64,000 bases of DNA from Psychrobacillus vulpis (GTDB taxonomy: Bacteria > Bacillota > Bacilli > Bacillales_A > Planococcaceae): positions 1-64,000 of the forward strand of contig NZ_VDGI01000010.1 of assembly GCF_006861825.1 (NCBI RefSeq), read 5' to 3'. The position numbers were made by a program, and so were the translations under genes. The stretch's first letter is position 1. Each line of letters opens with the position of its first letter. Under the pieces are notes generated by a model. That model saw only the letters and a program-made list of their open reading frames with translations, did no database searches and was not told where the DNA came from. Below are positions 8,417 through 54,450 of the stretch, piece after piece.

Positions 8417-8452
8417 ACTGTACATTTATCGTGCAGTTTCAGATTGAAAACA

Positions 8453-8494
8453 AAAGGCAGTTGGAATGAGCTTAATCCCAACTGCCTTTAAAAT
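8453..8494 (+). terminator. Terminator downstream of dnaE
   Basis: AAAGGCAGTTGG pairs perfectly with CCAACTGCCTTT around a 13-base loop and is followed by AAAATTTTT. A weaker hairpin (8416-8439, AACTGTAC/GTGCAGTT) precedes it and is repeated at 11393-11416. Confidence 0.8.
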
Positions 8495-8605
8495 TTTTCT
8501 TAATTTTGTTCAATAAATCTCTAGCATTAACGAGAAGCTGATGTGGCTTTTAAAATAAAGTTTGATCAAAAATACCACGAAAACCCAGATTTTACGATAA
8601 ATAAA

Positions 8606-8646
8606 AAGAATCCATTTTGAAAAAAGATTGATCAAAATGGATTCTT
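8606..8646 (-). terminator. Minus-strand terminator with no gene in front of it
   Basis: AAGAATCCATTTT pairs with AAAATGGATTCTT; only on the minus strand is the stem followed by TTTTTATTT. No reading frame leads into it from the right, only the promoter-like site at 8736-8768. Confidence 0.55.
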
Positions 8647-8735
8647 ACCCAGCAGATTTAAGTTTAGTTTTTATAAAAAAGTTTTAATCACTTTCGAGGT
8701 GCCTAAAGATTATTTTCGACTTGGCTAAAAATGAT

Positions 8736-8768
8736 ATAGTGACTCCTATTACGTAGCGTGAGGGTCAA
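8736..8768 (-). promoter_or_regulatory. MerR-type operator/promoter remnant
   Basis: On the minus strand TTGACC is followed by CTCACGCTACGTAATAGGA, which resembles the dyad ACCCTCACGTTACGTGAGGGT seen at MerR-family promoters; the second half is degenerate and no good -10 box is seen at 19-20 bases. No MerR gene is present. The 8500-8802 stretch holds only this site and the hairpin at 8606-8646. Confidence 0.35.
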
Positions 8769-8802
8769 GCATTTATCTTTTTTTGAAAACGGTGCAACTT
8801 TC

Positions 8803-9993
8803 TTAAAGCATCGCATCTTCTTTATAAAGTAAGGGTAAGCTTATTAAAAGCATAACGATCCCTAGTCCTAAAAAATATAGTGGCATCGCAAGGACTGTTC
8901 CGTTATGGAAAACGCTCATACCATAGATTGTAGCGCTGACGAGTAAATAATAACCTAAGCTAAATATCGCACCCGCAGAACCAATGACGTCTTGAAAGTC
9001 AATGAGCGCTAAGCTTAAACAGTTTGGTAAAGCGGTACCTGTACCAAATAAAATAATGAACACACTAACAATCATGGTTGGCATTTGTAATGAAATCGAT
9101 AAAAAATGTACCGATGTAGCGAGCAATGTACCGATGAGCATAATGGCTAATCCGCGTACGATAATCTTCTCAGGTTTTGTGTGGCTAACGAGTCGTTTAG
9201 ATAGCATCGCACCTGCGATAGAAGCGAGCGCAACGATAATGCCTAAAAAACCATACATCGCACTTGTTAGAGTAAAGTATTGCGTAAAAATAAATGGTGC
9301 TTCGGTATAATAGCTAAATAATACACCGTTAATACCGCCAATTAATACGCCGTAGCGCCATAGACGCGCATTTGTAATCATGCGCTTCACTATTGGTAGT
9401 ATAGGCTTCATTTCGATTGTAGTAAGCGCTGTTTCAGGTAACCGTAAAAACGCATAGCAAAATACAATAACGCTCATAGCAATTAACACCCAAAATACGA
9501 CTTTAAAGCCAAAATAATAATCGGTAAAGCCACCGATTAACGGGCCAAGGGCAGGTGTGAAGGCAAGGGCAGCTGAAATTTGAGCAAACAATTTATGACG
9601 CTCAACACCAGAAAAGCTTTCGCGTAAAATCGTTTGAGTCACGACAGAGCCAACACTTGCACCAAACGCTTGAATAAAGCGTGCGACTAATAAAACCGCC
9701 ATTTCATTTGCTATTAAACAAAGTACGTTACCAACAAAATATAAAAACAGCCCATAAAGCATTGCCTTGCGACGACCGATTTTATCGGATAAACGCCCAA
9801 AGAAAAATACTCCGAAGGCAAGAGCGATAAAGTACACACTCATCGTAAGCTGTGCATCACTCATAGAAGTTTCAAACGCTTCTGCGATAGAAGGTAATGA
9901 TGGGCTAAAAATAGTTTCACTAATTTGTGGGAAGCCTACTAATACAATCAGTAATAATAAGCTAAGTGTTTTGTTTTCGATGTTTTTCTTCAA
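8803..9993 (-). CDS. Bcr/CflA-type MFS drug efflux transporter
   Basis: 396-residue major facilitator superfamily protein with about 12 membrane spans. The loop 2-3 signature GRLSDKIGRRKAMLYG and the motif FGASVGSVVTQTILRE are typical of the Bcr/CflA drug:proton antiporter group (DHA1). The start is a TTG preceded by GGAGAGGA. The codons are visibly richer in GCG and CGC than in neighbouring genes, suggesting acquisition. It sits inside the accessory segment between dnaE and the acc operon, bounded on both sides by 20-bp iterons, and is preceded by a 27-codon ORF whose stop overlaps its ribosome binding site. Substrate unknown. Confidence 0.85.
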   Translation of the reverse strand: MKKNIENKTLSLLLLIVLVGFPQISETIFSPSLPSIAEAFETSMSDAQLTMSVYFIALAFGVFFFGRLSDKIGRRKAMLYGLFLYFVGNVLCLIANEMAVLLVARFIQAFGASVGSVVTQTILRESFSGVERHKLFAQISAALAFTPALGPLIGGFTDYYFGFKVVFWVLIAMSVIVFCYAFLRLPETALTTIEMKPILPIVKRMITNARLWRYGVLIGGINGVLFSYYTEAPFIFTQYFTLTSAMYGFLGIIVALASIAGAMLSKRLVSHTKPEKIIVRGLAIMLIGTLLATSVHFLSISLQMPTMIVSVFIILFGTGTALPNCLSLALIDFQDVIGSAGAIFSLGYYLLVSATIYGMSVFHNGTVLAMPLYFLGLGIVMLLISLPLLYKEDAML

Positions 9994-10005
9994 AATAATC
10001 CTCTC

Positions 10006-10089
10006 CTAGATAATTATAGGTTTGAAAGAAAAACATCGTAGCGTGGGAAATGGTGGCTTCACAAGTTTAATTTTTTCTAAATCACTCAT
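10006..10089 (-). CDS. 27-codon upstream ORF, candidate leader peptide of the MFS gene
   Basis: ATG at 10089 with AGAAGGAAGTG 5 bases upstream starts a peptide beginning MSDLEKIKLVKPPFPT and ending FKPIII. The TAG stop at 10008-10006 overlaps the start of the AGGAGAGG ribosome binding site of the efflux gene, so ribosomes leaving this frame sit on that site. Such coupled upstream frames are known before antibiotic resistance genes. It could instead be a chance frame, but the good ribosome binding site and stop position argue for translation. Confidence 0.5.
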   Translation of the reverse strand: MSDLEKIKLVKPPFPTLRCFSFKPIII

Positions 10090-10113
10090 GAATTCACTTC
10101 CTTCTAATTAAAA

Positions 10114-10199
10114 ATTATACCAACCAAAGGGATAAAACGGTGCAACTTATTTATAAACGGTTAATCTTTTTTATAAACGATCGAACTTTATTTCAAACC
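10114..10199 (-). promoter_or_regulatory. Extended -10 promoter of the MFS gene with 20-bp iterons
   Basis: The minus strand reads TGGTATAAT (TATAAT at 10119-10114) just before the leader ORF. Upstream, on the plus strand, units at 10140-10159, 10160-10179 and 10180-10199 are direct repeats of 20 bp (for example GTTAATCTTTTTTATAAACG), with a weaker one at 10120-10139. They cover the -35 region and beyond, so they may be an operator. Confidence 0.5.
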
Positions 10200-10299
10200 A
10201 ACAGCTGAAATCAATCTGAACATCCAATTTACGAACTAAATGGTCTTGTCTTGTGGCTCAATCAAATCGTACCACAATCCACACTCTACTTTTTTTTTT

Positions 10300-10662
10300 A
10301 GAAAATCGTTGAAAAAGGCGACACTCCTGCGGAATAGCGTTAGTCGAAGACCCCGCAGTTAAGCGAGAAGGGTATTGAGAAAGTGTTATTCCAAAAATTT
10401 TCTATCAAATAGTCGTTATAAGAGAATTTATCGCTTTGTCATTCGCTTTCCGCGGGCGAGCGACGAGCCTCCTCCTTCGCTCTGCTTCGTGCGGGGTCTC
10501 GTCTGTCTCGCTTTCCCGCAGGAGTCTCATGCGTCACGCTAAATTCTCTTAAATAAATACAGCAAATAGTTCCTACAAAAATACTAATTCGAGTTTTCAG
10601 TGCCCTCGTAGTGAGGAGACTGAGGCGACGCCCGCGGAAAAGGGCCGTTTCAACGATTTTTT
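10300..10662 (-). repeat. A repeat, copy 1, split by a B element
   Basis: The outer arms AGAAAATCGTTGAAA and TTTCAACGATTTTT are inverted repeats, and the GC-rich core contains GACCCCGCAG and CGCCCGCGGAAA. Removing the 238-bp B element and a 10-bp duplication leaves 115 bp, almost the length of the intact copy at 10752-10868. The copy is decayed. The 10200-10299 stretch to its left holds nothing I recognise. Confidence 0.8.
10369..10606 (+). mobile_element. B element, copy 1: 238-bp inverted-repeat element (MITE-like)
   Basis: Begins AGGGTATTGAGAAA and ends TTTTCAGTGCCCT, a mutated version of the perfect 14-bp inverted ends of copy 2 at 53425-53662, which has exactly the same length and is nearly identical inside. 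It carries no protein. The core itself resembles an A repeat and is flanked by AAGAGAATTTA and TAAATTCTCTT. Flanking decamers (TTAAGCGAGA and CGTAGTGAGG) are decayed versions of CGAAGCGAGG. Confidence 0.75.
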
Positions 10663-10751
10663 TTTAATTGGACTATTTTGGACAACCCCATCTGGAATAG
10701 TCAATTATTGGGGCTTTTTTAGTGCTTCATCCAAACTCCTTTTTTAATTCT

Positions 10752-11346
10752 AGAAAATCGTTGAAAAAGGCGACACTCCTGCGGGAATAGCGTTAGTCGA
10801 AGACCCCGCAGCGAAGCGAGGAGGCTAAGGCAACGCCCGCGGAAAGGGAGCCATTTCAACGATTTTCTTATTTCTTGGATTTTGGACAACCTCATCTGAC
10901 AACGTCGATTTATAACACTTTTTTCAGTGCCTTCAGCATAGGGATTGCACTGAAAACCTCTCTATTTTTCATGTTTTACTTTTTTATTTTTAGAAAATCG
11001 TTGAAAAAGGCGACACTCCTGCGGGAATAGCGTTAGTCGAAGACCCCGCAGCGAAGCGAGGAGGCTGAGCTACGCCCGCGGAAAGGGAGCCATTTCAACG
11101 ATTTTCTTATTAATTGGACTTTGGACAACCTCATCTGACAACGTCGATTTATAACACTTTTTCAGTGCCCTCAGCATAGGGATTGCACTGAAAAACTCTC
11201 TATTTTTCATGTTTTACTTTTTCATTTTTAGAAAATCGTTGAAAAAGGCGACACTTCTTTGGGATTAGAGATAGTCGAAGACCCCGCAGCGAAGCGAGGA
11301 GGCTAAGGCAACGCCAGCGGAAAGGGAGCCGTTTCAACGATTTTCT
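10752..11346 (-). repeat. A repeats, copies 2-4, in tandem with a 238-240 bp period
   Basis: A copies at 10752-10868, 10992-11107 and 11230-11346 share arms AGAAAATCGTTGAAA / TTTCAACGATTTTCT and a GC-rich core. The about 120-bp spacers after copies 2 and 3 are also nearly identical, so the array arose by tandem duplication. Each spacer holds an inverted repeat, TTTTTCAGTGC ... GCACTGAAAAA, that matches the ends of the B element. No gene is seen from 10090 to 11502. Confidence 0.85.
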
Positions 11347-11392
11347 TAGGAAAACCTGAGCTATTCTAAATAAAAATAAATATACAAAACTG

Positions 11393-53343: not shown

Positions 53344-53815
53344 AAGGTTCTAATTAAGTTACCGATAGGATTTAGCGCTCTGGCGTTCGCTTTCCGCGGG
53401 CGCTGCCTTAGCCTCCTCGCTACGAGGGCACTGAAAAAGTGTTATTCTAATAAATTTTCTATCAAATAGTCGTTAAGAGAATTTATCGCTTTGGCATTCG
53501 CTTTCCGCGGGCGAGCGACGAGCCTCCTCCTTCGCTCTGCTTCGTGCGGGGTCTCGTCTGTCTCGCTTTCCCGCAGGAGTCTCATGCGTCGCGCTAAATT
53601 CTCTTAAATAAATACAGCAAATAAGTTCTACCAAAATACTAATTCGAGTTTTTCAGTGCCCTCCTCGCTACGCTGCGGGGTCTTCGGCTAACGCAATTCC
53701 CGCAGGAGTCTCACGCCGCCGCTTTGAATCAGATATTAAGTAGTTTTTCTATGTTTTAATTCAGTAAATTGCAATAATCAATAAGCGGTTCATTGGAAGC
53801 AACCAATTCAATTTT
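53344..53815 (+). repeat. A repeat cluster 2, unit 1, carrying B element copy 2
   Basis: Unit of 472 bp. It equals the 224-bp neighbouring unit plus exactly 248 bp, that is a 238-bp B element and a 10-bp target duplication. The A core (CGCTTTCCGCGGGCG, CTCCTCGCTACG, CTGCGGGGTCTTCGGCTAAC, TTCCCGCAGGAGTCTC) is the reverse complement of the cores at 10752-11346. Confidence 0.88.
53425..53662 (+). mobile_element. B element, copy 2: 238-bp MITE-like element with perfect target duplication
   Basis: Ends AGGGCACTGAAAAA and TTTTTCAGTGCCCT are perfect 14-bp inverted repeats. CCTCGCTACG immediately precedes (53415-53424) and follows (53663-53672) the element, and occurs once in the uninterrupted neighbours, so it is a target duplication. 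It carries no protein and must depend on a transposase elsewhere. The core is A-like and bounded by AAGAGAATTTA/TAAATTCTCTT. Confidence 0.88.
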
Positions 53816-54250
53816 AAGGTTCTAATTAAGTTGCCGATAGGATTTAGCGCTCTGGCGTTCGCTTTCCGCGGGCGTTGCCTTAGCCTCCTCGCTACGCTGC
53901 GGGGTCTTCGGCTAACGCTATTCCCGCAGGAGTCTCACGCCGCCGCTTTGAATCAGATATTAAGTAGTTTTTCTATGTTTTAATCCAGTAAATGGCAATA
54001 ATCAATAAGCGGTTCATTGGAAGCAACCAATTCAATTTTAAGGTTCTAATTAAGTTACCGATAGGATTTAGCGCTCTGGCGTTCGCTTTCCGCGGGCGTT
54101 GTCTTAGCCTCCTCGCTACGCTGCGGGGTCTTCGGCTAACGCTATTCCCGCAGGAGTCTCACGCCGCCGCGCAAAATCCGATATTATGTAGTTTTTCAAT
54201 GTGTGACTCCAGTAAATGGCAATAATCTACAAGCGAATCATTGGAAGCAA
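53816..54250 (+). repeat. A repeat cluster 2, units 2 and 3 in tandem
   Basis: Units starting at 53816 and 54040 (224-bp period) share the A core and flanks such as GGTTCTAATTAAGTTACCGA and GCGGTTCATTGGAAGCAACC. Short frames across them have no ribosome binding sites and are not genes. The flanks differ from the arms used in the 10300-11346 cluster, so the shared mobile part is the core. Confidence 0.88.
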
Positions 54251-54355
54251 CCAATTTTGATATTGTATTATGCATAATTTAGAAGATGCGTAACATTTCG
54301 AAGTATACGCGTAATACTTATTGGAAAATCTTATCAGATAAATAAAGCGGATATA

Positions 54356-54450
54356 GTTGCCGTAGCGCGTAGTGCCGCATGGCCGAAGTCATGAGACCCA
54401 CTCGTGCGCAGCACGAGTTGGCTCATGCAAGGTGCGGCTAGCGCGAAGGC
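54356..54450. repeat. GC-rich long hairpin of another repeat type
   Basis: CATGAGACCCACTCGTGC pairs with GCACGAGTTGGCTCATG around GCA (54390-54427, two mismatched positions), enclosed by a partly complementary TAGCGCG...CCGCA / TGCGGCTAGCGCG pair. No T-run follows. The remaining 54250-54510 sequence shows no gene. Confidence 0.6.

Follow-up and report, generated by a model that had tools for sequence, protein, structure and literature searches.

The window, the whole 64,000-nucleotide stretch analysed here, contains two copies of a short repeat, B, each set into the tip of a hairpin repeat, A. The orientation of B relative to its host differs between the two loci. This arrangement raises the question of whether B entered the same point of two hairpins independently, whether a composite of A and B was copied as a block, or whether B inverted in place between its ends.

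Two B elements and their host hairpins

The source genome is a 4.02 Mb draft in 76 contigs. The two B copies of the window are 94% identical. Copy 1 has inverted ends of the GAGGGCACTGAAAAA type and lies at the tip of an A hairpin between decayed 8-bp duplications. Both copies run in the same direction and their host hairpins run opposite ways. The features are as follows.

10309..10367, minus strand: first half of the host A hairpin of B copy 1, interrupted by B (BLAST interval 10309-10374)
10360..10367, plus strand: left target duplication of B copy 1, TAAGCGAG, 3/8 mismatches to the right copy
10368..10607, plus strand: B copy 1, MITE of 240 bp, left end AAGGGTATTG (decayed), right end CAGTGCCCTC
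10608..10615, plus strand: right target duplication of B copy 1, GTAGTGAG
10608..10643, minus strand: second half of the host A hairpin of B copy 1 (BLAST interval 10607-10643)
10761..11333, minus strand: tandem array of A units beside B copy 1, hairpin cores at 10761-10855, 11001-11094 and 11239-11333
53381..53721, plus strand: host A2 hairpin split by B copy 2, halves at 53381-53424 and 53660-53721
53416..53423, plus strand: left target duplication of B copy 2, CTCGCTAC, exact match to the right copy
53424..53663, plus strand: B copy 2, MITE of 240 bp, ends GAGGGCACTGAAAAAGT / CAGTGCCCTC
53664..53671, plus strand: right target duplication of B copy 2, CTCGCTAC, exact match to the left copy
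53853..54169, plus strand: two more A2 hairpins in a 224-bp array, without B, at 53853-53945 and 54077-54169

A first-pass annotation had placed two B elements at an equivalent hairpin-tip site in opposite orientation relative to A, and the sequence of both loci bears this out. The duplications of copy 1 are decayed, as had been noted, with three mismatches, and those of copy 2 are exact. Other details were revised. The repeat pair itself is sound, but B measures 240 bp rather than 238 bp once its full ends are counted. A single decamer had been named as the target; the common site stands, but the duplicated target is 8 bp and not 10. The same A repeat had been assigned to both loci. The hosts at 10 kb and 53 kb do have a hairpin core in common, but they belong to two different repeat classes. 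Inversion of B in place, offered as an alternative, is not needed.

A units in the array near copy 1 end as B does, with GGGCACTGAAAAA at 11158-11170 on the minus strand, and diverged ends are also present. The units lie head to tail with an 8-bp AGCATAGG between them (10935-10942 and 11173-11180), as if the element and one target duplication had been multiplied together. A search of the 53-kb A2 array allowing up to 2 mismatches found no GGGCACTGAAAAA-type end except B's own; the 224-bp A2 tandem repeats at 53660-54331 have the same hairpin core without the common transposon ends. A further GC-rich palindromic stretch lies at 54350-54440, upstream of a pheS T-box leader, and direct repeats spaced by about 103 bp lie at 134-503. 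At the Rfam gathering threshold A and B match no family, and a single T-box was detected. A-class cores, including that of B, occupy 881 of the 64,000 bases of the window.

Orthologous empty sites were sought for each locus in 9 of 18 same-genus relatives. At the 10-kb locus, 8/9 relatives have dnaE beside the gntR region with no A or B match between them, and one relative (G016) has a diverged B-like piece. All of 8417-11390, comprising a minus-strand MFS-type transporter gene and the A and B repeats, is absent between dnaE and gntR-accD in 8/9 relatives. At the 53-kb locus a B copy with ends was found in 0/9 relatives, one contig being too short to judge. Two genes lie within about 15 bp of each other there in 3/9 relatives, and the upstream gene was unmatched in one. 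An A hairpin without B was found at neither locus in the nine relatives searched for each.

Relation of B to an IS1182-family insertion sequence

The ends of B, GAGGGCACTGAAAAA(GT/CT), match those of an insertion sequence (IS) in the same genome. GGGCACTGAAAAA has 128 matches in the genome and its reversed control has 0. Among the fetched loci, the element types with these common ends are B, the 10-kb-type A units, shorter elements and one IS, whose right end encodes a transposase C-terminus. The transposase at L153:2018-3475 is 486 aa long and contains the domains DUF772, DDE_Tnp_1 and DDE_Tnp_1_6. Transposase scores on NF033551 are 366.8 and 350.9 bits against a cut-off of 270, which assigns it to the IS1182 family. 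The L153 copy, the best in the source genome, runs into a contig end. No whole copy was seen in this genome, and its IS ends are known from separate contig ends. In other Bacillota, terminal inverted repeats surround one transposase gene within an exact duplication in 50 of the 80 named loci described below. Single N bases at L029, L048 and L055 join different element ends and are probably scaffolding joins between IS copies. An IS256-type transposase (PF00872, 4 places) was considered as the parent and rejected, as the IS ends with the common terminal sequence encode an IS1182 C-terminus.

Because B is too short for a transposase gene, it is best called a MITE. Its core is itself an A-like hairpin, and its target duplications have 0-1 mismatch in some copies and are decayed in others. 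As judged by its ends, B is a MITE of an IS1182-family IS, and the common ends suggest that it is probably mobilised in trans by a transposase of that family. REP elements moved by RAYTs are short palindromes with a Y1 HUH transposase; the size and ends of B point away from them. B-like sequence, mostly the hairpin core alone, was matched in 27/61 genomes searched. The A-like nature of B, the transposon ends common to B and the 10-kb-type A units, the likely IS1182-family parent and an additional landing site where the stem begins, at its base, were all beyond the reach of the first-pass annotation.

Landing sites of B and of its probable parent element

A genome search for B gave 57 matches, about 43 of them long; 40/304 candidates were scored, so copy numbers are lower bounds. 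At least 47 distinct B copies from the fetched loci had both ends in reach. In 35/47 both flanks lie in the same A-class site. Among these copies, tip insertions with agreeing flanks number 22 parallel and 4 antiparallel to the host hairpin, copy 1 of the window belonging to the minority of 4/26, and insertions at the stem base, CCTTTCCG, number 8 parallel and 1 antiparallel. Of the remainder, a single flank was recognised in 7, the two flanks disagree in 1, and 4 lack any A-class flank. A hairpin-site label was found on at least one flank of 43/47 B copies compared with 588/20,000 random window positions, and on both flanks of 35/47 compared with 54/20,000. Chance is excluded as an explanation of B placement. 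B also has a preferred direction, being parallel to its host in 30 and antiparallel in 5 of the 35 both-flank cases (p=2e-5).

The insertion point was examined in 19 tip copies whose duplications match exactly or with a single mismatch. Both motifs required for scoring were present in 16, and in 16/16 of these the end of the duplication lies 5 bases before GGGGTC, while its distance from the first GCCTC-like motif ranges between 5 and 13. The 3 further copies have near-exact duplications without the required motifs. The duplications of the host hairpins (CTCGCTAC, CTCGCTTC, CGCAGGCT, CTCCACTT, ACTGCCGTT, GCTGCGCT and variants) represent several classes. About 10 B copies have one common host class; many of the 16 scored copies are in one class, so part of the agreement in spacing is expected. 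Two 8-mers recur as B targets in this genome. B was also found inside B (C23:47017-47503 and C13:17726-18200), and an A-type end adjoins B tip sequence at L041. Recurrent insertion at one hairpin point in both orientations, which the first-pass annotation had taken as the mark of a targeted site, was thus found in several hairpin classes. Its proposal of independent insertions into one site agrees with the equal spacing in 16/16 scorable tip insertions and with duplications that match each copy's own host hairpin.

A composite of A and B might instead have arisen once and been copied, with B or A inverted later. 14 flank pairs among 93 flanks do have at least 250 bp in common beyond 150 bp from B, part of them being other A or B repeats and at least one a duplicated block. 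Two copies in L067 resemble a tandem duplication, as they are 98.7% alike over 302 bp and have the same decayed duplication. Some B copies spread together with their surroundings. However, 77/93 outer flanks lie outside the common pairs, the duplications match the local hairpin, the hosts include different hairpin classes and B itself, and both the tip and the stem base serve as sites. Spread as a block, which had been named beforehand as the outcome that would count against targeting, does occur, as in L067, but fails to explain the whole set. It is contradicted for most copies, and we regard it as very improbable as the general explanation. The B insertions are better read as repeated, mostly independent events at one structural site.

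The right end of the IS was matched over at least 86 bases in at least 12 places of the source genome (40/71 candidates scored), and 7/12 places are within 150 bases of a contig end. Distinct IS end flanks collected in this genome number 15, of which 12 belong to right and 3 to left ends, and some may be two ends of one copy. All 15 are CCTTTCCG, the site at the stem base of A hairpins. Adjacent 150-bp flanks on the same side show roughly 4-24% divergence where long alignments exist, which argues that these ends are mostly separate insertions. No hairpin loop is predicted at the stem-base site. Since all the IS ends collected here occur there, sequence matters as well.

IS insertions in other species were collected in two sets. 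For the first, the best 80 of 484 loci from named Bacillota were fetched, and 50/80 were resolved with both ends, an exact duplication and 60-bp flanks; the other 30 were cut by contig ends, were missing ends or had imperfect duplications. The duplications are 8 bp in 27, 9 bp in 22 and 7 bp in 1. Empty sites were rebuilt by joining the flanks, and stem scores of at least 16 were counted. The duplication lies over a hairpin loop reaching this score in 44/50, compared with 181/4900 random positions, 60/1957 positions 40-250 bp away (3.1%) and 89/2000 flank shuffles. An A5 tract lies on the left in 31/50, a T5 tract on the right in 31/50 and both in 21/50; the opposite tracts were seen in 1 and 0 of 50. 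We read these tracts as belonging to intrinsic terminators, and many of the hairpins hit appear terminator-like.

The second set began with 110 candidate loci, some of which were not IS copies. Of these, 40 provided new distinct insertions, 25 were duplicates and 45 had no resolved insertion. 8/40 had been inspected previously. The stem score was reached in 22/40, compared with 46/1600 local controls (2.9%) and 67/1600 shuffles. Insertions without a strong stem make up 6/50 of the first set and 18/40 of the second. The hairpin rule is therefore partial and weaker in the second set. An IS1182 copy at L171:745-2434, in a collagen-like repeat gene, is such an exception: its 8-bp duplication is exact, but a strong hairpin is absent. 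Among strong-stem cases, the dyad of the hairpin falls at the midpoint of the duplication in 25/43 of the first set and 10/21 of the second. At A-class tips the duplication is not centred on the predicted dyad and lies at a fixed distance from the 3' arm. An A-class tip was struck in 5/90 IS insertions of other species, with a spacing of 5 bases in 4 and 4 bases in 1. In the first set duplication length fitted the parity of the palindrome in 35/42, but this parity rule failed to replicate in the second (13/21, p=0.19) and was dropped.

Replacement of the hairpin as by IS1272 was not found among the insertions with exact duplications, which are of 7-9 bp and occur in 50/80 named loci and in the 40 further insertions. 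Stems are retained over most of these 90.

Selection could in principle imitate targeting if insertion were random and survivors remained only in harmless hairpins or terminators. Terminator-like sites are where such survivors would be expected. However, in either set only about 3% of positions 40-250 bp off reach the stem score, and survival would not pin the insertion point to one base in 16/16 tip copies. We consider it highly implausible that selection rather than targeting accounts for the pattern.

A more serious alternative is that the transposase reads a short motif, C-rich on the left and G-rich on the right of 8-9 bases, and that hairpins merely carry this motif. Two 8-mers are reused repeatedly in the source genome, 15/15 IS ends are at one of them, and the stem-base site has no predicted loop. 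C is enriched at -3/-2 (27 and 28 of 49) and G at +2/+3 (31 and 31 of 49) around the duplications. The recurrent 8-mers and the C-rich left and G-rich right arms suggest that sequence also plays a part. However, across species the duplicated sequences vary while the stems persist (44/50 against 89/2000 flank shuffles), and the fixed spacing to GGGGTC is held in hairpins of differing tip sequence. Recognition of a motif alone is accordingly an unlikely explanation, and target choice by hairpin shape with some contribution of sequence is preferred.

Proposed mechanism and known systems

It is likely that B is an IS1182-family MITE whose target choice depends largely on hairpin shape and to some extent on sequence, and that copies 1 and 2 arose by separate insertions, in opposite orientations, into two different hairpins at an equivalent structural point. 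The sequences themselves show the ends, the duplications, the recurrent fixed insertion point, both orientations, the nesting and the enrichment of IS insertions in hairpins of other species. An IS1182-family transposase would act on B in trans and would choose targets mainly by hairpin shape, sequence assisting. The hairpin would presumably be extruded as DNA, and the element would be joined to the two strands of its tip at points staggered by 8 or 9 bases. Such staggered joining would leave a copy of the tip at either side of the insert. Most hairpins struck in other hosts resemble intrinsic terminators. In the source genome B mostly strikes the cores of A-class repeats, a number of which are themselves MITEs that share its ends, and also other B copies, producing nested elements. 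The hairpin within the elements may be maintained as a landing site.

The leader of the IS, from its left end to the gene, bears on this last point. It is short (105-182 bases) in 32/50 resolved IS and long (285-330 bases), with a large hairpin, in 18/50. Both tip motifs, each with at most 1 mismatch, were found in 11/18 long leaders, 1/32 short leaders and 83/1800 shuffled long leaders. The MITEs retain the ends and the hairpin without the gene. The mobile element thus contains the target that B prefers and, in some species, the one preferred by the IS. We tentatively propose, as a possibility just short of an even chance, that this Bacillota IS1182 group reads DNA shape, duplicates hairpin tips and bears its own target in leader and MITEs. 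The spread of hairpin MITEs would then multiply safe sites, a self-building landing pad that spares genes.

To our knowledge, target choice by DNA secondary structure has been proposed for few DDE transposases. The 90 natural IS insertions with exact duplications, together with a landing site fixed to the base, provide material for testing structure-guided insertion. B inserts mostly in hairpins much like its own, so that the host genome fills with ready landing sites. The results also suggest an origin for GC-rich hairpin repeats in the bacterial family of the host, which may be target-carrying relics of one IS family. Hairpin repeats of the B kind would be one cause of breaks in draft assemblies.

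The following comparison draws on the available portions of the cited papers. IS1272 and TnSha1, IS1182-family elements of staphylococci, target hairpins that have no fixed sequence and that include several terminators (PMC4923244, PMC5678879), and a review by Siguier and colleagues, quoted in both papers, states that some IS1182 members target palindromes. B and its parent resemble them in transposase family, in hairpin targets and in the use of both orientations at one target. The outcome of insertion differs. TnSha1 deletes part of the hairpin (PMC4923244), and with IS1272 the stem-loop is lost and no duplication is made (PMC5678879). Unlike IS1272, which removes part or all of the stem-loop, B and the parent IS duplicate 8-9 bp at the loop and the arms remain. 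PMC5678879 depicts a loop-duplicating form, pathway (c), among the possible ones. For IS1182, ISfinder records duplications ranging from 2 to 60 bp (PMC7335449). IS1182 elements are over-represented between convergent genes, where terminators lie (PMC9208149); the words 'hairpin' and 'palindrom' are absent from the available text of that paper. Among the papers listed in literature searches (up to 20 per search, of up to 1,144 matching), with most subscription journals outside their coverage, no title or abstract opening dealt with IS1182 loop duplications or with hairpin MITEs of Bacillaceae.

Bacterial MITEs are short, have no transposase gene and have terminal repeats and duplications like those of autonomous IS (PMC10969869). 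B is like them in being short and gene-less with IS-like terminal repeats and duplications, but unlike MITEs generally its long GC-rich hairpin core is itself the preferred landing site. The same source describes QMITE2 of Coxiella as an IS1111 target through a REP, and its available text contains neither 'nested' nor 'IS1182'. REPs (repeated extragenic palindromes) are preferred targets of several IS transposases (PMC1525189), and here too a repeated palindrome family is the preferred target of a transposase. Unlike the REP case, the B-type hairpins reside in MITEs that belong to the IS family itself and in a part of its IS copies. Hairpin targeting by the IS1182 family is thus already known from IS1272, whereas duplication of the loop and a landing hairpin carried by the element itself look like new features.
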